DNA from: Campylobacteraceae bacterium | Lineage (GTDB): Bacteria; Campylobacterota; Campylobacteria; Campylobacterales; Campylobacteraceae | Direction of reading: 5' to 3' | Assembly (NCBI GenBank): GCA_031274495.1 | Contig: JAISQB010000036.1 | Location: 1 to 47,922, forward strand | DNA: 47,922 bases | Shown: piece after piece, positions 11,827-20,595 of the stretch | Layout of the letters: every line of letters begins with the position of its first letter | How positions within the stretch are numbered: the first letter of the stretch is position 1 | The notes under the pieces: generated by a model | What the model saw: only the letters and a program-made list of their open reading frames with translations | Told to the model about the DNA's origin: nothing | The model's database searches: none | Translations under genes and position numbers: made by a program

Positions 11827-12624
11827 ATGAAGAAGATGCCCGTTGTGAGCTTTGGGATTTTGATTTTTGTGGTTTTGTTGTCGTTTTTTGGCGGGTTTGT
11901 ATATCAGCCATCGCCTTATGATATGAACGCCAATGCGCTTTTGGAAGCTCCAAGTTTAGGGCATATACTTGGCACCGATAGGCTTGGGCGCGATCTGTTG
12001 GCGCGGATAATGAAGGGCGGGCAAGTGTCGCTTATCATAGGATTTGGCAGTGCGACGATAGCGAGCTTCGTGGGGCTTGCCATAGGGATAAGTGCGGGAT
12101 TTTTCGCCAAAAATACGGATAAAGTCATCGTCGTTATGATAGACCTGTTTCTCACTTTTCCGACATTTTTTCTACTTTTGGCGCTTATCAGTTATGTGAA
12201 CGCTTCGGCACTTACGCTCATCATCGTCATCTCCGTGACGGGCTGGATGGGGATGGCGAGGATGATACGAAGCGAAAGTTTCGCCATCAACGCGCAGCCG
12301 TTCATAAAGGTACTAAAACTCTCCAATGTCTCAAGGCTAAAAATCATCTTCAAATACTTCACGCCGCTTTTGGCGCCTCTGTTTTTCATAAGTTTTACCT
12401 TCGGAATCAGCGGCGCGATACTATCCGAAAGCGGTCTTAGCTTCCTTGGAATCGGCGTTATGCCGCCAGATATTAGCTGGGGGAGTATCTTGTCGGAGGG
12501 CAAAGAGGTGATAGATGTGGCTTGGTGGATCAGCTTTTTCCCCGGACTTATGATATTTTTGGTCACACTCTCGCTTATCAATATCAGCGATTATCTGCAA
12601 TTTTTGACGAATCAAAAGGGTTAA
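11827..12624 (+). CDS. ABC transporter permease, DppC/OppC type (orphan)
   Basis: This 265-residue inner-membrane protein has an N-terminal anchoring helix and then the OppC-like LGTDRLGRDLLARIMKGGQ segment. Five further helices follow, with the cytoplasmic coupling loop at about residues 190-205 (GAILSESGLSFLGIG) that contacts the ATPase. This type imports peptides, nickel or similar solutes. Its usual partners (DppB-type permease, ATPases, binding protein) are not adjacent. The accessory island lies on its left and a decayed stretch on its right, so the rest of the transporter may be elsewhere or lost. The start at 11827 has GAGAG upstream. Confidence 0.85.
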   Translation: MKKMPVVSFGILIFVVLLSFFGGFVYQPSPYDMNANALLEAPSLGHILGTDRLGRDLLARIMKGGQVSLIIGFGSATIASFVGLAIGISAGFFAKNTDKVIVVMIDLFLTFPTFFLLLALISYVNASALTLIIVISVTGWMGMARMIRSESFAINAQPFIKVLKLSNVSRLKIIFKYFTPLLAPLFFISFTFGISGAILSESGLSFLGIGVMPPDISWGSILSEGKEVIDVAWWISFFPGLMIFLVTLSLINISDYLQFLTNQKG

Positions 12625-12674
12625 GTTCCCGCGCCAATCCTGCCAAAACGCGTGCTTTTAGCGGTATTGCAAAA

Positions 12675-12881
12675 TTACTCTATTTTTTGCAAATAGTGAA
12701 ATAGTCCGACGTTTGTATAGTATATCTGCGCGCCCATATAGCCCTTGACGCCATAGATGTCGGTTAATTCCTCAAACTCCGCGACAGATAAAACATCAGC
12801 AGTTACATCAGCGGAAAAAATAAGACAAAACCGCGTTATTGTATCAAATTTGCCACTATTTATATTTAGCTTAAATTTATT
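12675..12881 (-). pseudogene. Minus-strand protein-like remnant, no start codon
   Basis: The minus-strand frame from 12881 to a TAA at 12675-12677 has 68 codons and reads like real protein (for example FDTITRFCLIFSADVTADVL, then EFEELTDIYGVKGYMGAQIY). There is no ATG, GTG or TTG with a ribosome binding site at its start. It therefore looks like the 3' end of a lost gene between the orphan permease and the iron locus. The family is not recognised. Confidence 0.4.
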
Positions 12882-13001
12882 TTAATTTTATGGTTGATAA
12901 TCTCTTAAATTTCCGCCGTTTTTTGACAAATTTTAGCCATACCTGATAAAAATTCTCAGAAGCTATAAAGCGCCATCTTGTCGTTGTTTTGGGGGATGCG
13001 T

Positions 13002-13016
13002 TGATAATAATTATCG
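13002..13016. promoter_or_regulatory. Fur box-like palindrome 1
   Basis: TGATAAT-A-ATTATCG is a 7-1-7 inverted repeat with one mismatch to the Fur consensus arms (TGATAAT/ATTATCA). It lies about 94 bases upstream of the ftr1 ATG. Fur repression under iron sufficiency fits what is known for the P19 locus of C. jejuni. Confidence 0.65.
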
Positions 13017-13076
13017 GTATTTAATCATTTATAAAGCTTCTAAATAGTAAAATTCTATTTTTACTTTTTATCGTTT

Positions 13077-13091
13077 TGATAATCAATATCT
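13077..13091. promoter_or_regulatory. Fur box-like palindrome 2
   Basis: TGATAAT-C-AATATCT also matches the 7-1-7 Fur pattern, with a GATAATCAATATC core one base from the classical GATAATCATTATC. It sits 18 bases before the ftr1 ATG, so a bound repressor would cover the transcript start or the leader. Together with box 1 it suggests cooperative iron control. Confidence 0.65.
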
Positions 13092-13109
13092 AATATTTTG
13101 GAGTTTTTT

Positions 13110-15014
13110 ATGAAAAGCATAGTTCAAATCCTGCTTGTCTTAGCCATACCGTTTTTTTTAAACGCGAGGACTTATGACTATGATGATTTGACCAATCGCG
13201 TAAAAGAGCGCTTTGCCGATAGTCTGGCACTTTATGAGGAGGGCAAGACGGAAGAGGCGAGAGAGGTCGCGCAGAGTGCGTATTTTGAGCTATTTGAGAA
13301 CTTAGAGGGTCCCATCAGGATAAATGTTTCAAGTAAGAAATCGTGGACTATGGAGCGAAAATTTACCAAGATAAGAAATCTCATCAAAAGCGGGGCGAGC
13401 ATAGAAGAGGTCAAAGCCACGATAGATAGCCTAAACGCCGATATGGACGAAGTTCTTCCAAAACTAAAAGCAGGCACCGTTATAACGGCGGAAGCTACGC
13501 AAGGCGATGAGGCTGAGAGCGCGAGTGTCGCACCCGTTGTTTTGGAGCTTGACGCAAGATGGCAAGCTCTGTATGACAGTATAGAAAAGAGACTGCAAGC
13601 ATCCGTTGAGGCGTTTAAAAACGGCGACAAAAACAGAGCCAAAGAGTTGATACGCGAGGCGCAGTTTGAAGACTACAGAAACGGTATGATAGAGGTCGCC
13701 ATACGAAAGCATATCTCCCAAGCTAAAGACGGGCAGATACAAAACGATATTAGGCGCGTTATCATCGCCGTAGATAATATGGCAAGCGAAAAAGAGCTTG
13801 AGGGCGAACTCTCCAGGATAGAAAACTCTATCTTCGACGCACTAAATGATCTTCCAAAAGAGGCTGCCGAGTTAGCCGTGGCAAATGTGGAGAAGGTCGA
13901 AGAGCCGGGGCAGGATTTTGGCGCTGTTTTGGCGGATATAAAAGCGGAGGGGGCGAAAACTCTTGAACTTTATAAAAACGGAGATAGCAAAAAAGCGATA
14001 AGCACGATACAAAATGCATATTTTGATATATTTGAAGCAAGCGGTATGGAGGTGCGCGTTGGCGCGGCTGACAGCGGCTTGAAAACGACGATAGAGGGGA
14101 CATTCAGCGAGATAGCGGCTATCATCAAAAGCGGCGGCAGCGTGGAGAGGGTGGAGCAGGCTTTGGAGAAGCTTTATAGTGAAGTGGAGCAGGGCGTTGT
14201 TAAATTGTCGGATTCAGGCACACCGTGGTCGCTGTTCATCTACGCTTTGGTGATAATTTTGCGTGAAGGTTTAGAGGCTCTTATCGTTGTGACCGCCGTT
14301 ATAGCCTATCTTGTCAAAAGCGGCAATCAAAAAAGACTTGGGATTGTCCACAGCTCTCTTTGGAGCGCGATAGGGCTAAGCTTTGTGACGGCTTTTATTA
14401 TGAACTATCTCTTCAGCGCTTCTGGTGAGTCGAGGGAGATGTTGGAGGGTGTTACGATGCTTGTGGCTGTGGGCTTGCTGTTTTATGTGGGCTTTTGGCT
14501 TCTATCAAACGCACACGCCAAAAAGTGGTCACAATATATATCCGGCAAAGTCCAAGAATCACTTAGCAGCGGTTCGGCAAAAGCTCTATGGTTCACCGTA
14601 TTTTTAGCGGTCTATAGAGAGGGTGCGGAGACGGTGTTGTTTTATCAGGCGATACTATTTGACGCCAAAAACGCGCTTGGTGTATTGGCGGTCGCGATAG
14701 GATTTGCGATAGGATTTGTAATACTTATAGCTGTATATTTTGCTCTGAAAGCGGGCTCTTTGAAGTTGCCGATAAAGGCATTTTTCCTTACTACAAGCGT
14801 GATTATATTTTATATGTCGGTAACATTTACGGGCAAGGGCATTATGGAGCTTGTAGAGGGCAAAATCATAGAACCTACGATCATAGAGGGCTTGCCTACG
14901 ATAACTTGGCTTGGCGTCTATCCGTATGTTGAGAGTTTACTGCCGCAGCTTGTGTTGCTTGTGGCTATTGTTGCCGGAAGCCTGTTTTTGCGCGCACGTG
15001 CGAAAAAAGCTTAA
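13110..15014 (+). CDS. FTR1-family high-affinity iron permease with N-terminal repeats
   Basis: This 634-residue inner-membrane iron permease has a signal peptide (LAIPFFLNA). A periplasmic part follows, built of three repeats of roughly 95 residues (starting near residues 26, 155 and 272, each with a helix like LYxxGDxxxA...AYF). The C-terminal FTR1 domain has seven helices. It carries both REGxE iron-coordinating motifs, REGLE near residue 384 and REGAE near residue 501. It is the first gene of the P19 locus (Cj1658-like). Start chosen: ATG 13110 with GGAG seven bases upstream, not the in-frame TTG at 13098, which lies in the ribosome binding site. Fur boxes precede it. Confidence 0.93.
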   Translation: MKSIVQILLVLAIPFFLNARTYDYDDLTNRVKERFADSLALYEEGKTEEAREVAQSAYFELFENLEGPIRINVSSKKSWTMERKFTKIRNLIKSGASIEEVKATIDSLNADMDEVLPKLKAGTVITAEATQGDEAESASVAPVVLELDARWQALYDSIEKRLQASVEAFKNGDKNRAKELIREAQFEDYRNGMIEVAIRKHISQAKDGQIQNDIRRVIIAVDNMASEKELEGELSRIENSIFDALNDLPKEAAELAVANVEKVEEPGQDFGAVLADIKAEGAKTLELYKNGDSKKAISTIQNAYFDIFEASGMEVRVGAADSGLKTTIEGTFSEIAAIIKSGGSVERVEQALEKLYSEVEQGVVKLSDSGTPWSLFIYALVIILREGLEALIVVTAVIAYLVKSGNQKRLGIVHSSLWSAIGLSFVTAFIMNYLFSASGESREMLEGVTMLVAVGLLFYVGFWLLSNAHAKKWSQYISGKVQESLSSGSAKALWFTVFLAVYREGAETVLFYQAILFDAKNALGVLAVAIGFAIGFVILIAVYFALKAGSLKLPIKAFFLTTSVIIFYMSVTFTGKGIMELVEGKIIEPTIIEGLPTITWLGVYPYVESLLPQLVLLVAIVAGSLFLRARAKKA

Positions 15015-15065
15015 ATTTGAGGTTTTTAAATTTTAATAAAAACAATTTTAGTTAAGGAGATGGAA

Positions 15066-15599
15066 ATGGTCAAATTTTTGACAAAATTAGTTGCGGCGCT
15101 GGGCGTCGTTTTCGTATTGAACGCTTTGGCGGCGGATGAATTCAAAGAGTTCCCGATAGGTGAAGAGGTAGAGATCAACAATATGCTCATCGCGGCTGTA
15201 TATCTTGAGCCGATTGATATGGAACCAAAAGGTATAGATTTGGCTCCTTCTTTGGCTGATATCCACCTTGAGGCTGACATTCACGCCACAGAGGGCAACA
15301 AAAACGGCTTCGGAGACGGCGAATGGATCCCACATCTTAAAGTATCTTATGAGCTTACCAACAAAGATACAGGCGCAAAAAAGAGCGGCACTTTTATGCC
15401 TATGGTCGCAATTGACGGTCCTCACTACGGCTCAAACATCAAAATGTTGGGCGTAGGTAACTATCACCTTAAATACACGATTGAAAATCCGTCAAAACAA
15501 GGTCTTGGACGCCACTCAGACAAAGCTACGGGTGTCGGCAAATGGTTTGAACCCTTTACGGTTGAGTATGATTTCAAATATACCGGAATCAAAAAATAG
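15066..15599 (+). CDS. p19: P19 periplasmic iron/copper-binding protein
   Basis: This 177-residue periplasmic protein has a signal peptide that ends at ALAA-DE. It closely matches the P19/Tpd/FetP family: AAVYLEPIDMEPKGIDLAPS, then ADIHLEADIHA, PMVAIDGPHYG and GRHSDKATGVGKWFEPF. The metal-site residues known from C. jejuni P19 correspond to H67, a Met of the MPM motif (111 or 113), H120 and H150, and all are present. It hands iron to the FTR1 permease upstream. AAGGAG abuts an ATG at 15060, so the ATG at 15066 with correct spacing is the start. Confidence 0.95.
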   Translation: MVKFLTKLVAALGVVFVLNALAADEFKEFPIGEEVEINNMLIAAVYLEPIDMEPKGIDLAPSLADIHLEADIHATEGNKNGFGDGEWIPHLKVSYELTNKDTGAKKSGTFMPMVAIDGPHYGSNIKMLGVGNYHLKYTIENPSKQGLGRHSDKATGVGKWFEPFTVEYDFKYTGIKK

Positions 15600-15615
15600 G
15601 TTCATTTTAAAACGC

Positions 15616-15661
15616 GCTCTGTTTTTGTCCTAACTTGGCAAAAGCAGAGCAACTGCTTTTT
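15616..15661 (+). terminator. Intrinsic terminator overlapped by an alternative hairpin
   Basis: AAAAGCAG (15640-15647) and CTGCTTTT (15653-15660) form an 8-bp stem followed by Ts, a plausible rho-independent terminator after p19. Its left arm is also part of CAAAAGCAGAGC (15639-15650), which can pair with GCTCTGTTTTTG (15616-15627) at 11 of 12 positions. The two structures exclude each other, as in an attenuator. It could set the ratio of ftr1-p19 to the downstream transporter genes. Confidence 0.5.
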
Positions 15662-15795
15662 ATCTGTTTTGACTTACCCTTTCAGCCAACGGTTTTGGCA
15701 AGCACACTGTTAACTACTTTAAAAGAAAAAACCGCGTCAAAATCAGATAGATTTAAGTCTGTAAGCTTTATTATTTTGAAAAAGTTAGGAACAAA

Positions 15796-17019
15796 GTGTC
15801 AGTATATTTTTATCACGTTTTACAATCTTTTTTAGGAATAACCCTCTATCTTGCCCTTTGGAGTAAAAAAGTCTCCCCAAAAGAGGTGAGTTTGGGTTCA
15901 CTCATCGGTATAATCTTCGCTTTCGCCTCCTTTAAGATAGCGGACGATTTTTTAAATACGGACGAACTTAAAACCGTCTGTTTCACTATAGCCATCGTCT
16001 CTTTAATATTTCTGCATTTTCTATTTTTGGCGCGCTCCACCATTTTGAATATCGCCGTAACCGCACTTTTAGTGTTTTGTTTTGGCGTCTACTATAGGGT
16101 AGTGTCGTACGATTTCCCGCTCTTTAGCGGCGAACTTTTGGATACGCTCTCCATCATATCTTTTGGTTTTACGATTTTAGGTTTTTTTATAATAGTATTT
16201 ATATATCTTTTCTTGCGCAATATCGCTTTGGCGCTTTCAAATAAAATTTTGATTTTCCTTGTGGCGTTAACTGCCATTTTAATGATACTAAACTTTTTTG
16301 GGCTAAGCGCCTTGGAGATGATGCGCTTCAAACTTATCGACACAAGCGCGCAGTTTCTGTCCATAACGGCGATGCTGATACATTACGGCTCGTTTTTGCA
16401 CTACGGCTACTGCGGTTTGATTGTTGTAGCTTTAGCGCTTTATCTAAAAGATATGCCCGCTTTATCCCAAAAAGAGAGCGTTGGCAGCATCGTTTACAGA
16501 AAGACAAAAGCCAAAAGAGAGCAGATAAAATTTGGCATAAAGTGCGTCATAGCGGCGATTTTACTCTCAAACGCACTCTTTTTATATTACGACCTCCACG
16601 CTTCAAGACCGCCCAAGATTTCGGACTCTAAAATTTTAGAACCCATCAACGGCGAATTTAGGATACCCATCAAACTCTTGGAAGATGATGATCTGCATAG
16701 ATTTGCATATATAAATGAAGAAGGTCACAAGATACGCTTTTTTGCGATAAACCGCTTCAAGGGTAAAACTTCACCGGTTGTAGTGTTTGACGCGTGTATG
16801 ATTTGTGGCGATATGGGGTATGTCAAGAAGGGGGATGAGCTTATCTGCATCTCCTGCAATGTGCGTATATTTCTCCCATCCGTGGGAAGAGCGGGCGGCT
16901 GCAATCCGATACCGCTTGTGTATGAAAATGACGGCGAATACTTGATAATATCATTAGACGAGATAAAAAGCGGGGCGAACTTTTTTAGCGAAATAGTAAA
17001 AGAGGGGGGTGCAAAATGA
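15796..17019 (+). CDS. DUF2318 Fe-S-containing membrane protein of the P19 locus
   Basis: This 407-residue protein (Cj1660-like) has about ten transmembrane helices through residue 270. A C-terminal domain on the outer side follows, with cysteines in C-x2-C, C-x2-C and GGCNP (FDACMICGD, ICISCN, AGGCNP), the DUF2318 signature. Such proteins are thought to bind metal or a cluster and to help redox handling of iron in the periplasm, but the reaction is not established. The start is GTG at 15796 with AGGA five bases upstream. The next gene overlaps its stop by four bases. Confidence 0.85.
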   Translation: MSVYFYHVLQSFLGITLYLALWSKKVSPKEVSLGSLIGIIFAFASFKIADDFLNTDELKTVCFTIAIVSLIFLHFLFLARSTILNIAVTALLVFCFGVYYRVVSYDFPLFSGELLDTLSIISFGFTILGFFIIVFIYLFLRNIALALSNKILIFLVALTAILMILNFFGLSALEMMRFKLIDTSAQFLSITAMLIHYGSFLHYGYCGLIVVALALYLKDMPALSQKESVGSIVYRKTKAKREQIKFGIKCVIAAILLSNALFLYYDLHASRPPKISDSKILEPINGEFRIPIKLLEDDDLHRFAYINEEGHKIRFFAINRFKGKTSPVVVFDACMICGDMGYVKKGDELICISCNVRIFLPSVGRAGGCNPIPLVYENDGEYLIISLDEIKSGANFFSEIVKEGGAK

Positions 17020-18284
17020 GATTTAGAATGGTAAAAGCCGCACTTCTGGGTAATAAAACGCAAAAACTTTTAGCCTTTTTGACTATCTTCTTAGCCTCCG
17101 GACTGGTATGCGCTATGTTAAATATCACCCTTGGCATCGGCGATAAAGTGGCTATGGAGCTTAGAAGTTACGGCTCAAATATCATAGTCCTACCCAAAGG
17201 TGGGAGCATAAATATCGACATAGGCGGCGAGGAGCTGAACCTCTTGCAAAACGACGCCTATCTGGAAGAGCAGTATATAGACGGGCTGAAAAATATATTT
17301 TGGAGAAACAATATAGTAGCTTTCGCGCCGTTCTTGGAAGAGAAGATCGAGTTTGGGGGCAAGAGCAGGGCGATACTGGGGACATATTTTGACAAAAAGA
17401 TAGAGCTTGAAGACGGCGAAGAGTTCTCTACGGGCATAAAAACTATGTATCCCTTCTGGAGCGTTGAGGGGGAGTTTTTGGATGATGACGCTTTGGATGA
17501 AGTGCTGATAGGCAAAAATTTAGCCGCAGAGCTTGATATAGCGGTCGGAAGTGTCGTTAATGTGGCGGGCAAAAGCTTAACTGTTAAGGGGATACTAAAG
17601 ACAAATGACAGCGCGGATGATAAGATAATCACCTCTTTGAAATTAGCCAACGAACTTTTAGGCAAAGAGGGCAAAATATCGTGGATAGAGGTCTCCGCGC
17701 TCACTATCCCCGAAGATGACCTCTCCGTCAAAGCAAGGCGCAATTTGGAGAGCTTAAACGCCATAGAGCACGACAAATGGTACTGCTCGGCGTATGTGGG
17801 CTCTATCGCCTATCAGATAGAGGAGGAGTACCCCTCATCCAGCGCGAAAGCTTTGATGAAAATCAGCGAGGGCGAGAGCCAGATAGTAAAAAAGATACAG
17901 TCTTTGATGGGCGTTGTCACTATCTTGGCGCTATTTTCGGCTTCCATCGGCATAGCTTCGCTTCTAACTTCAGAGATACATAGACGCAAAAAAGAGATAG
18001 GCTTACTAAAAGCGTTAGGCGCAGACAATCTCAATATCTATCTGCTCTTCTTAGCCGAATCTTTATATATAGCCATCGCCGCAGGAATTGCCGGCGCGGT
18101 GGGTGGATATGGGCTCTCTATTTTGATGGCGTTTTTTATATTTGCGCACGCTATAAAGATAAGCCTCATAGTGCTGCCGCTGACGGTCTGCTTTGCCGTT
18201 TTGATAGCGCTTTTGGGCTCATTGCTGCCTATGAGAAACGCAGCACACCTACTTCCCGCGGAGGTTTTACATGAAAGGAAGTAA
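17016..18284 (+). CDS. FtsX-like ABC permease of the P19 locus (first)
   Basis: This 422-residue MacB/FtsX-type permease has an N-terminal helix (residues 13-35) and a periplasmic MacB-like domain of about 220 residues. Three C-terminal helices form the FtsX domain, which contains the EIHRRKKEIGLLKALGAD motif that contacts the ATPase. It is Cj1661-like. Its ATG overlaps the DUF2318 stop (ATGA) and its end overlaps the second permease by 14 bases, so expression is coupled. With the second permease and the ATPase it forms a transporter whose cargo is unknown but which works with P19-FTR1 iron uptake. Confidence 0.9.
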   Translation: MRFRMVKAALLGNKTQKLLAFLTIFLASGLVCAMLNITLGIGDKVAMELRSYGSNIIVLPKGGSINIDIGGEELNLLQNDAYLEEQYIDGLKNIFWRNNIVAFAPFLEEKIEFGGKSRAILGTYFDKKIELEDGEEFSTGIKTMYPFWSVEGEFLDDDALDEVLIGKNLAAELDIAVGSVVNVAGKSLTVKGILKTNDSADDKIITSLKLANELLGKEGKISWIEVSALTIPEDDLSVKARRNLESLNAIEHDKWYCSAYVGSIAYQIEEEYPSSSAKALMKISEGESQIVKKIQSLMGVVTILALFSASIGIASLLTSEIHRRKKEIGLLKALGADNLNIYLLFLAESLYIAIAAGIAGAVGGYGLSILMAFFIFAHAIKISLIVLPLTVCFAVLIALLGSLLPMRNAAHLLPAEVLHERK

Positions 18285-19407
18285 ATTAAACTTCATCTTT
18301 TTTGCAAAAATGGTATTTAAAAGCCTCTCCTTAAGCAGGGGTGCGGCGGGCGTTATATTTGTATCCATAGCGCTTGGCGCGGCGATAACGGCGGGCTTTA
18401 TCAATATATATCTTGATATAGACTCCAAAATGAACAAAGAGCTGAAAGCTTACGGCGCCAACTTTATCATAGCCTCCAAAGATACATATATGAGCGAAAA
18501 AACATACGAAAATACGCTTGGGTTGATAGACGGCGGCAAACTTTTGGGCGCGTCGCCTTATCTATTTGGTATAGCAAGGTTAGAGCTTGGAAACGCCGTG
18601 ATAGCGGGGGTGAATTTCAAAGAGCTCAAAAAAGCAAAGCCGTTTTTAGAGGTGAGAGAGGGCAGCTATATCAATGTCGATTTTGACGAATTCAGCGCGC
18701 TTGTCGGTGTGGATTTGGCAAAGAAGATGGAGCTTAAAGTGGGCTCCGTTGTGGATATAATGGGCGCTAACGGTAAGATTAGACTAAGGATAAAAGGCAT
18801 CGTCTCAACCGGCGGCAAAGAGGACGGCATACTGTTTGTGCCGCTAAGTACGGCGCAAGACGCGCTCGATAAAGAGGGGCTTATCAACTTTGCCGACATC
18901 GTAGTGCTTGGAAATTTTGACGAACTGAAGATTTTGGGCGAAACGATAAGCGAAGCAAGCGGACTTGCCGCAAAGCCCGTGACGGCTATTTCGAGGTCGG
19001 AGGGTATTATATTAGATAAGATAAAGCTCCTAATGGCACTTGTAGCCTTGAGCGTGCTTCTCATAACATCTTTGTGCGTCAATACGACCCTAAGCTCCAT
19101 CATCTTTTCAAGGACGAAAGAGATAGCGCTCCTGCGCGCTCTGGGTGCTTCAAAAAAGAGTATCGTACGGCTGTTTGGAATGGAGACTTTTGTGATGAGC
19201 TTTTCTGCCTCTCTTGTGGGGGCGGGGCTTGGATTTTTGCTATCGCAGGCTTTCGGGCGGGCGATATTTAATTCGGGTATCGATTTTAGATTTTTATCTA
19301 TCCCTTCGGCGGTTTTGATTTCGGCGGTTTTTGCCGCCGCGGCGTGCTTTTTGCCTATCAAAAAATCGCTTGGGATAAATGTGGCGAATATTTTACGAGG
19401 AGAATAA
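18271..19407 (+). CDS. FtsX-like ABC permease of the P19 locus (second)
   Basis: This 378-residue relative of the preceding gene (Cj1662-like) has the same architecture: N-terminal helix, periplasmic domain, and a C-terminal FtsX domain with SRTKEIALLRALGAS. The two are diverged paralogues and probably form a heterodimer on the ATPase. The ATG at 18271 lies within the end of the upstream gene, with AGGAAG-type pairing weak, so translation is likely re-initiated. The downstream ATPase starts directly after its stop. Confidence 0.9.
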   Translation: MKGSKLNFIFFAKMVFKSLSLSRGAAGVIFVSIALGAAITAGFINIYLDIDSKMNKELKAYGANFIIASKDTYMSEKTYENTLGLIDGGKLLGASPYLFGIARLELGNAVIAGVNFKELKKAKPFLEVREGSYINVDFDEFSALVGVDLAKKMELKVGSVVDIMGANGKIRLRIKGIVSTGGKEDGILFVPLSTAQDALDKEGLINFADIVVLGNFDELKILGETISEASGLAAKPVTAISRSEGIILDKIKLLMALVALSVLLITSLCVNTTLSSIIFSRTKEIALLRALGASKKSIVRLFGMETFVMSFSASLVGAGLGFLLSQAFGRAIFNSGIDFRFLSIPSAVLISAVFAAAACFLPIKKSLGINVANILRGE

Positions 19408-19408
19408 A

Positions 19409-20074
19409 TTGTCGGCAGTTGTTGAATTAAAAAATATAGAGAAGCGCTTCGGCGATGTAAGCGCACTGGAAAATATAAATATAACGGTAAATAAAAACGA
19501 GTGGGTGAGCGTGATGGGCGTGTCCGGTTCAGGCAAAACCACGCTTTTAAACATACTATCCTTGATGGACAACCCAACAGGCGGCGAGTATCTTTTTAAC
19601 GGCGAAGATGTGAGCGGGTTTGACGAGACAAAGCAGCTTCTGTTCCGCCGCGAAAAGATAGGGCTTATCTTCCAGCAGTTTCACCTGATACCATATCTTA
19701 CGGCACTTGAGAATGTGATGTTAGCCCAATACTACCACAGCGCGACGGATGAAGAGGACGCAAAGGCGGCTTTGGCAAAAGTGGGACTTTCGCACCGCTT
19801 GACACACCGCCCATCAGAGCTATCAGGCGGCGAACAGCAGAGGCTTTGTATCGCAAGGGCGCTTATCAATGACCCCGAAGTGCTGCTCGCGGATGAGCCT
19901 ACGGGAAATTTGGACGAAGATAATGAAAAGGTGATATTTGACCTCTTCTTGACACTGAAAAAAGAGGGTAAAACGATCATATCCATCACGCACAACCCAG
20001 AACTCGGCGCACTTGGGGATAGAGTGATATATCTGCACCACGGCAAAATAGTCGGCAAAGAGGAGCATAAATGA
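19409..20074 (+). CDS. ABC transporter ATPase of the P19 locus
   Basis: This 221-residue LolD/MacB-class ATPase (Cj1663-like) has Walker A GVSGSGKTT near residue 35, the Q-loop IFQQFHLIPYLTALENV, signature LSGGEQQR and Walker B VLLADEPTGNLD. I start at TTG 19409, which has GAGGAGA six bases upstream. The in-frame ATG at 19379 lies inside the upstream permease and would add ten residues that do not fit the family. It energises the two FtsX-type permeases. Its stop overlaps the ATG of the thioredoxin-like gene. Confidence 0.93.
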   Translation: MSAVVELKNIEKRFGDVSALENINITVNKNEWVSVMGVSGSGKTTLLNILSLMDNPTGGEYLFNGEDVSGFDETKQLLFRREKIGLIFQQFHLIPYLTALENVMLAQYYHSATDEEDAKAALAKVGLSHRLTHRPSELSGGEQQRLCIARALINDPEVLLADEPTGNLDEDNEKVIFDLFLTLKKEGKTIISITHNPELGALGDRVIYLHHGKIVGKEEHK

Positions 20075-20595
20075 GTTTTGATACGATAAAAAAAGCGGCT
20101 TTTTTGGTAGGGATAGCGCTTCTTTTTGTCTCCTGCTCAAAAAACGCGGGCGAAAAAAACCATATAGTCTTAAACGGCAAAAACGGCGAAGCGGGCACGA
20201 TAACGACATATTTTTCAGCTTCAAATAAGACGCTTAAGATAGATAGCGGCAAGCCTTTTATACTATTTTTTACCTCCACGACTTGCGGGGCTTGCGCTGA
20301 GGCTGTGCCATATATGAACTATTTTGAAGAGAAGTACGCCGATAGATTTGAAGTGATAGGCGTTATGAATGGGGACTTGGGGCTTGAGAAAGGATTTGAA
20401 GTGTTGAAAGCGAAAAATATCAACTTCAAAGTGGTATCCGAGGTCAAATCCGTAGACTATTTCTCCCGCGCCGTGGGCGGTATATACGGCACTCCGGTGT
20501 TTTACCTATACGACAAAGATGGGGCGCTAAAAGAGAAGTTTTTGGGACTCACACCGCAAAACAGATTAGAAGAGAGTATAAAAGAGATAATATAA
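20071..20595 (+). CDS. Thioredoxin-like (TlpA-type) lipoprotein of the P19 locus
   Basis: This 174-residue periplasmic lipoprotein (signal LLFVSCSKN, acylated Cys near residue 24) carries a thioredoxin fold with the active-site CGAC in FTSTTCGACAEAVPY and the cis-proline motif GTPVFYLYD. In C. jejuni the locus ends with two such proteins (Cj1664, Cj1665), but only one is present here. It probably keeps cysteines of the DUF2318 protein or another partner reduced. It is the last gene of the iron locus by overlap (ATGA). Confidence 0.88.
   Translation: MSFDTIKKAAFLVGIALLFVSCSKNAGEKNHIVLNGKNGEAGTITTYFSASNKTLKIDSGKPFILFFTSTTCGACAEAVPYMNYFEEKYADRFEVIGVMNGDLGLEKGFEVLKAKNINFKVVSEVKSVDYFSRAVGGIYGTPVFYLYDKDGALKEKFLGLTPQNRLEESIKEII

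Follow-up and report, generated by a model that had tools for sequence, protein, structure and literature searches.

The apparent attenuator between p19 and fetA of a Campylobacteraceae bacterium is most likely an ordinary terminator or 3′-end hairpin

Is there a transcriptional switch behind the p19 gene of Campylobacteraceae bacterium? The window analyzed here is a stretch of 47,922 nucleotides (contig JAISQB010000036.1 of assembly GCA_031274495.1), and its nearest named relatives are metagenome-assembled genomes that are likewise called Campylobacteraceae bacterium. It contains an iron uptake gene cluster, and the original prediction placed a mutually exclusive terminator and antiterminator after p19. 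The features of the locus are as follows.

13002 to 13015, plus strand: Fur-box-like sequence TGATAATAATTATC located 5′ of ftr1, the sole match in the window with no mismatch to the pattern
13110 to 15014, plus strand: ftr1/fetM iron permease (PF03239), with the ATG at 13110 after GGAG, a start picked by eye
15060 to 15599, plus strand: p19/fetP periplasmic iron-binding protein (PF10634), with the stop codon TAG at 15597-15599
15785 to 15790, plus strand: Shine-Dalgarno-like TTAGGA before the fetA GTG, read from the sequence
15796 to 17019, plus strand: fetA/FtrD-like (DUF2318) membrane protein (PF10080), with a GTG start
17016 to 20595, plus strand: two FtsX-like permeases, an ABC ATPase and a thioredoxin-like protein (fetBCD/E-like), from the ORF list and family matches

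The mechanical ORF of ftr1 starts from the TTG at 13098, in frame with the ATG at 13110. The sequence at 13002-13015 is called Fur-box-like by its likeness to the Fur box consensus. A second Fur-box-like sequence with one mismatch lies at 13077-13090, also 5′ of ftr1, while none was found in the p19-fetA spacer at up to three mismatches to the pattern derived from this consensus. The gene order ftr1-p19-fetA-ABC-thioredoxin, all on the plus strand in the window, is the same as in the fetMP-fetABCDEF cluster (cj1658-cj1665) of Campylobacter jejuni, which also has a Fur box 5′ of ftr1 and a hairpin 3′ of p19. However, the spacer from the p19 stop codon to the fetA GTG (15796) is 196 nt in the window and 82 nt in C. 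jejuni, whose hairpin is a simple stem without useful overlap. The fetA/FtrD-like ORF is 406-410 aa in the window and in the loci L035, L036, L037, L040, and L041; it is 455-477 aa in most other Campylobacterota loci.

Are the two stems really present? Both were refolded and found as described, the left arm of the presumed terminator lying wholly inside the right arm of the longer hairpin. The following elements were recognized after p19.

15608 to 15615, plus strand: 5′ flank with a possible pairing partner in 15655-15662 (probabilities 0.56-0.80), which would lengthen the long stem at its base
15616 to 15650, plus strand: long hairpin with 14 pairs, -19.6 kcal/mol, the conserved element
15640 to 15660, plus strand: short overlapping hairpin with 8 pairs and no wobble, -7.3 kcal/mol for the bare stem, probably incidental
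15657 to 15661, plus strand: T5 tract after the hairpins, a probable termination or 3′-end region, from the sequence

The long hairpin starts 16 nt past the p19 stop codon, and its right arm (15639-15650) contains AAAAGCAG (15640-15647), the left arm of the short stem. None of 200 shuffles of its 35 nt folded as well, a test that is generous because the stretch was picked for its folding. The stretch of the short hairpin folds at -7.9 kcal/mol and is no better than its shuffles (z -0.28; 63/200). Without the weak lower stem, the T5 tract begins 6 nt past the strong stem, and T-runs of 5-6 occur in the same place in all four relatives of the window's group. The lower-stem extension was rejected as a conserved feature, since the exact pairing of the window is absent from these four relatives; other lower-stem extensions seem possible in them, as judged by eye.

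Which stem would win? In a fold of 15600-15672, the pairs of the long stem have probabilities above 0.98 (the 12 outer pairs were examined), and those of the short stem have probabilities of about 10^-6. At equilibrium the short stem is essentially never formed. The stabilities are not comparable (-19.6 versus -7.3 kcal/mol, about 12 kcal/mol in favor of the long stem). When the transcript was grown in 5-nt steps, the long stem was complete at 15651, ahead of the right arm of the short stem. When the left arm of the long stem was barred from pairing, the short stem did form. Since the long stem dominates and also forms first, switching would require some factor able to open a stem of -19.6 kcal/mol, and none was seen. 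Moreover, the supposed antiterminator is finished before the right arm of the terminator is transcribed, so that read-through would be the default.

Is the overlap unusual in this genome? As a background, the 57 nt past the stop codon were folded for 250 3′ ends of ORFs of at least 120 aa in 326 kb of the same genome. A hairpin as stable as the long stem was found at two of them, presumably including p19's own end (-19.6 kcal/mol). Hairpins of -10 kcal/mol were found at 51 of the 250 ends, at 18 of 50 convergent gene ends, and, where the next gene lies on the same strand 57-300 nt away, at 8 of 37 ends. For the overlap itself, both strands of the 326 kb, coding sequences included, were scanned for hairpins that stand before a T-run and reach at least -10 kcal/mol, which gave 520. 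With the window counted, 38 of them have an overlapping alternative of -4 kcal/mol or better and 14 have one of -6 or better. An alternative that reaches -6.5 and has no more than one wobble accompanies 4 of the 520, the window hairpin included, and two of the 68 hairpins of -15 or better, the window hairpin again counted. The stem overlap exceeds chance weakly and is only mildly unusual. It arises from an A-run in the 3′ arm of the terminator and the T-run behind it: these two runs already supply the AAAA/TTTT half of the short stem, and only the four GCAG/CTGC pairs are extra.

Is either stem maintained in the genus of the window? It was found that 13 of 14 genus genomes, the window's own included, have p19 (one has no p19 match), and in all 13 loci it is directly followed by a hairpin of at least -13 kcal/mol. 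Grouping of these loci by spacer sequence, without a tree, gave a window group (the window, L035, L037, L040, and L041), a second group with a different stem (L038, L039, L042, L044, L045, and L046), and two others (L036 and L043). Pairs were counted in the window group, a small sample of five sequences, after the arms had been realigned separately in a way that leans towards the stems; the counts of the first alignment (A1) were left unused because the long stem is out of register in it. Three pairs of the long stem are changed on both sides, 96.6% of its cells pair versus 54-61% in slid registers, and 3 of 500 shuffles matched its covariation score. Two of the five members (the window and L040) have a perfect short stem; this stem has one compensatory pair, and 200 of 500 shuffles were as good on covariation. 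Its sixth pair fails in three of the five, in L041 partly because the row of this locus in alignment A4 is shorter and out of register, with gaps at the end. The overlapping stem of L040 is perfect but differs in sequence, AAAAACAG/CTGTTTTT (9 pairs, -7.3 kcal/mol). The best overlapping stems in the relatives' own registers reach +4.2 kcal/mol in L035 and L037 and -1.5 in L041. Two mutually exclusive stems sharing a strand are thus present in the window, but in the relatives the two are not both conserved or covarying.

How far does the hairpin extend beyond the genus? From 75 loci, L048 (a second copy in one genome) and L106 (a frameshift-split match) were removed and the window (L005) was added, which gave 39 Campylobacterota loci and 35 loci of other groups; the 12 other genus genomes enter once, as L035-L046. 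The best hairpin in the 57 nt past the p19 stop codon is -8 kcal/mol or better in all 39 Campylobacterota loci and -10 or better in 38, a set that includes close species (37 distinct 57-mers) and two loci, L090 and L099, that have no fetA start within 260 nt and count as p19 ends, not as shown p19-fetA junctions. At the ftr1 3′ ends of the same loci, where the stop codon of the upstream ORF was chosen by script and the 57 nt often reach into p19, only 6 of 39 have a hairpin of -8 or better and 3 of 39 one of -10 or better. Among 17 further family loci (L018-L034), several of them close to named loci, 16 were readable by motif (all except L025), and all 16 have a hairpin at -8. Compared with 100 shuffles, the hairpin ranks in the top 5% in 32 of the 39 Campylobacterota loci and in 24 of the 35 other-group loci (Yersinia, Alphaproteobacteria, etc.). 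The stem sequences are unrelated between lineages, while the position is kept.

A T-run of at least 4 lies beside the stem in 22 of the 39 Campylobacterota loci and is absent in 17, which means that termination cannot be its role at every locus. Three of the 39 (the window, L040, and L096) have an overlapping alternative of -4 kcal/mol or better, and the C. jejuni loci have no useful overlap, the best being +0.2 (L100) and -1.7 (L104). This survey indicates that conservation concerns the presence of a hairpin at this position; paired alternative stems are not conserved, and a T-tract is not always there. In the comparison of the spacer across Campylobacterota, by which the original prediction was to be judged, the hairpin of the long-stem type is kept in place, and the short stem mostly is not. 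Six Campylobacter loci (C. jejuni, C. coli, and C. volucris; L100, L102, L103, L104, L083, and L109) have another hairpin, rich in A+U, past the first one, with its end close to the start of fetA. L061 of Sulfurospirillum sp. BB15 has two bulge-free tandem hairpins of 9 and 11 pairs within the 60 nt past p19, ahead of the next gene.

How, then, might fetA be transcribed? Two further elements were noted in the spacer of the window.

15662 to 15748, plus strand: imperfect inverted repeat with arms at 15662-15673 and 15736-15748, around some 70 nt missing from the four relatives of the window's group
15752 to 15774, plus strand: conserved block TTTAAGTCTGTAAGCTTTATTAT with a -10-like TATTAT (15769-15774), a candidate fetA promoter from the alignment of relatives

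All five members of the window group keep TATTAT together with the preceding block, and the candidate -10 there matches at 5 of 6 positions and has no -35 in register. All six members of the second genus group carry CTGTATAATAAAA unchanged just past the hairpin, a perfect TATAAT with TG directly before it. A promoter-like sequence past the hairpin is thus found in 11 of 13 genus loci; L036 and L043 are the other two, and the spacer of L043 is about 62 nt. The available text of PMC3824568 describes a C. jejuni -35-type sequence TTTAAGTnTT with 19 nt to the -10 in cj0183. The letters TTTAAGT in the block fit this type, but the distance from the 10-mer to TATTAT is 7 nt, not 19, and the assignment was rejected. 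The block was also discarded as a general promoter motif, as its pattern occurs once in the genome. With a promoter-like element in 11 of 13 loci, fetA in the window's genus need not rely on read-through, and the spacer sequences suggest that a separate fetA promoter is likely in most of this genus. Such an element is a feature of the window and unlike the fetMP-fetABCDEF cluster of C. jejuni. Outside the genus, the spacer is merely 36-65 nt in 13 of the 39 loci (L047, L050, L053, L054, L055, L057, L058, L061, L065, L091, L092, L093, and L096). A promoter would hardly fit into such spacers, so transcription of fetA probably relies there on read-through or on a promoter inside p19.

The stretch of about 70 nt at 15662-15748 looks like a fold-back insertion between the terminator and the putative fetA promoter. 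The arms of its inverted repeat are ATCTGTTTTGAC and GTCAAAATCAGAT, and the right arm is largely common to L037. The spacer was rejected as a repeated mobile element because its genome has no second copy (best other match 25 nt, 88%, E 0.05). A search for 15658-15750 elsewhere in the 14 genus genomes gave 23 nt at 96% (E 4e-4, G001) as the best match, the rest being weaker and short.

What is known for C. jejuni? In the available parts of the papers, a single primary start site lies before the whole cluster, which was taken as one operon, with induction values of 3.2 for 1649, 3.8 for p19, 2.9 for 1651, and 3.5 for 1652 (PMC6083913). The cj1658-p19 unit was named an operonic transcript, p19 being among the top-expressed genes under iron limitation, and cj1660-1663 were iron-repressed as well (PMC3815106). 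Without Fur, cj1658-p19 and cj1660-1665 are both up, and the Fur motif was assigned to cj1658 (PMC4491227). Since both sides co-respond in these reports, the C. jejuni junction appears to be read through, not fully terminated. The sRNA CjNC140 is an activator of p19: when it is missing, p19 drops 7.9-fold and the upstream gene 7.6-fold, and the main text of PMC10470494 does not mention CJSA_1571 to CJSA_1573, which are the downstream genes by numbering. Another study placed C. jejuni FetA behind a constitutive promoter and the 82-nt fetP-fetA spacer and found that it was still up under iron limitation (PMC10783030). As far as the available text goes, its authors suggest control at the post-transcriptional level or through a regulatory element that lies either in the spacer or within fetA. 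A regulatory element at the p19-fetA junction has thus already been proposed in print for C. jejuni, and the second A+U-rich hairpin of Campylobacter is a candidate for these iron-dependent FetA levels. The main text of PMC3656092 has nothing on attenuation or p19, and no described p19-fetA hairpin or attenuator was found among the literature matches listed, which were mostly freely accessible papers.

Could the window nevertheless use attenuation, in which the long stem is opened and the short stem forms, terminates, and lowers fetA expression? Its geometry permits this, one strand being common to two alternative stems as in known transcription attenuators, and the short stem does form once the left arm is barred. 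The perfect overlapping stem of L040, with different letters at -7.3 kcal/mol, and the iron response of C. jejuni FetA behind the 82-nt spacer (PMC10783030) can be read in the same way. However, attenuators sit in a leader, whereas the element of the window lies behind a structural gene; its short stem is thermodynamically negligible, with the long stem ahead by about 12 kcal/mol and forming first, and no sensor was found. A terminating ribosome usually reaches about 12-15 nt, and the left arm, 16 nt past the p19 stop codon, is outside this reach. Rfam riboswitches and leaders gave four weak matches in 12500-17100, none of them near the gathering score, so that no family is present at threshold there, though a site for some protein is conceivable. 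Neither do the relatives retain the overlap, as the sixth pair fails in three of five, 200 of 500 shuffles equal the covariation, and the best overlaps are +4.2 (L035 and L037), -1.5 (L041), and, in C. jejuni, +0.2 and -1.7. With a short stem that is perfect in two of five members, an overlap in three of 39 loci, and a pairing probability of about 10^-6, the idea of attenuation by exclusive stems was abandoned as very improbable, and the short hairpin is most likely incidental rather than a regulated alternative. It is still less likely that the long hairpin itself has no function and arose by chance or as a mere by-product of structure. Its sequence is not conserved across lineages, and hairpins of -10 kcal/mol stand at 51 of 250 gene ends of the same genome, but 39 of 39 loci at -8 against 6 of 39 at the ftr1-p19 junction, together with the compensatory changes in the long stem, speak against it.

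The reading that I consider probable is that the long hairpin marks the 3′ end of the ftr1-p19 mRNA as a terminator, and probably as an exonuclease block, with fetA restarted in most of the genus. The hairpin at 15616-15650, prolonged by the weak lower stem as far as the T5 tract (15657-15661), would act as an intrinsic terminator, possibly a leaky one. Counting against this reading are the joint response of the C. jejuni genes on the two sides of the junction, the two genus loci without an assigned promoter-like element, and the frequency of hairpins behind other genes. The same hairpin would block 3′-5′ exonucleases on the ftr1-p19 RNA, and periplasmic P19 may thereby be made in excess over the membrane and redox components. 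The fetA-ABC-thioredoxin genes would probably be restarted from their own promoter just past the hairpin in most of the window's genus, while outside this genus the element may be an intercistronic hairpin of the malE type. The window and its four group relatives share with intrinsic terminators a GC-closed stem and a T5-T6 tract near the stop codon, although the T-tract of the window is 6 nt off the strong stem and 17 of the 39 loci have no T-run of at least 4. The expectation that the DUF2318-ABC-thioredoxin genes are expressed in a graded manner relative to ftr1 and p19 remains plausible with a hairpin kept between p19 and fetA; the switch is not needed for it.

A somewhat unlikely alternative, though one with a precedent, is that the hairpin is protective and terminates little. 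An mRNA from the Fur promoter would then be cleaved in its fetA part and exonucleases would be stopped at the hairpin, so that the ftr1-p19 RNA persists, as for malE. In E. coli ABC transport operons, binding-protein genes are stabilized, with 3′ structures in malE and others, and stable hairpins without a U-tract were reported at 26 of 34 stabilized 5′ genes in the available text of PMC5927463. The likeness to malE-malF is that a stable stem stands right after the gene of a periplasmic binding protein and before those of membrane components. The U-tract is absent in many Campylobacterota relatives too (the T-run is kept in 22 of 39), 13 of 39 loci have the short spacer with little room for a promoter, and the C. 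jejuni genes on either side of the junction respond alike in the available reports. Differential mRNA decay is the trait of the malE-malF hairpins and would be expected in the window under this reading. However, P19/FetP serves an FTR1-family permease, not a classic ABC importer. The window and all four group relatives also have a T5-T6 tract and a promoter-like element downstream, which termination fits better.

The apparent switch is thus most likely an ordinary terminator or 3′-end hairpin, and the better lead is the p19 3′ hairpin that was found in all 39 Campylobacterota loci. Its effect would be familiar in kind, because transport operons that need an excess of binding protein use such hairpins. 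It is conceivable, but a long shot, that the p19-fetA hairpin is an iron-responsive stoichiometry device, at which an sRNA, an RNA-binding protein, or a nuclease alters read-through or cleavage under iron limitation and raises FetA. If this were true, it would explain why the FetA level of C. jejuni still depends on iron when the gene has a constitutive promoter. Judging from the available text of PMC10783030, the p19 3′ hairpin would be a concrete place to seek this iron dependence of FetA, as well as the cause of the abundance of p19 RNA.
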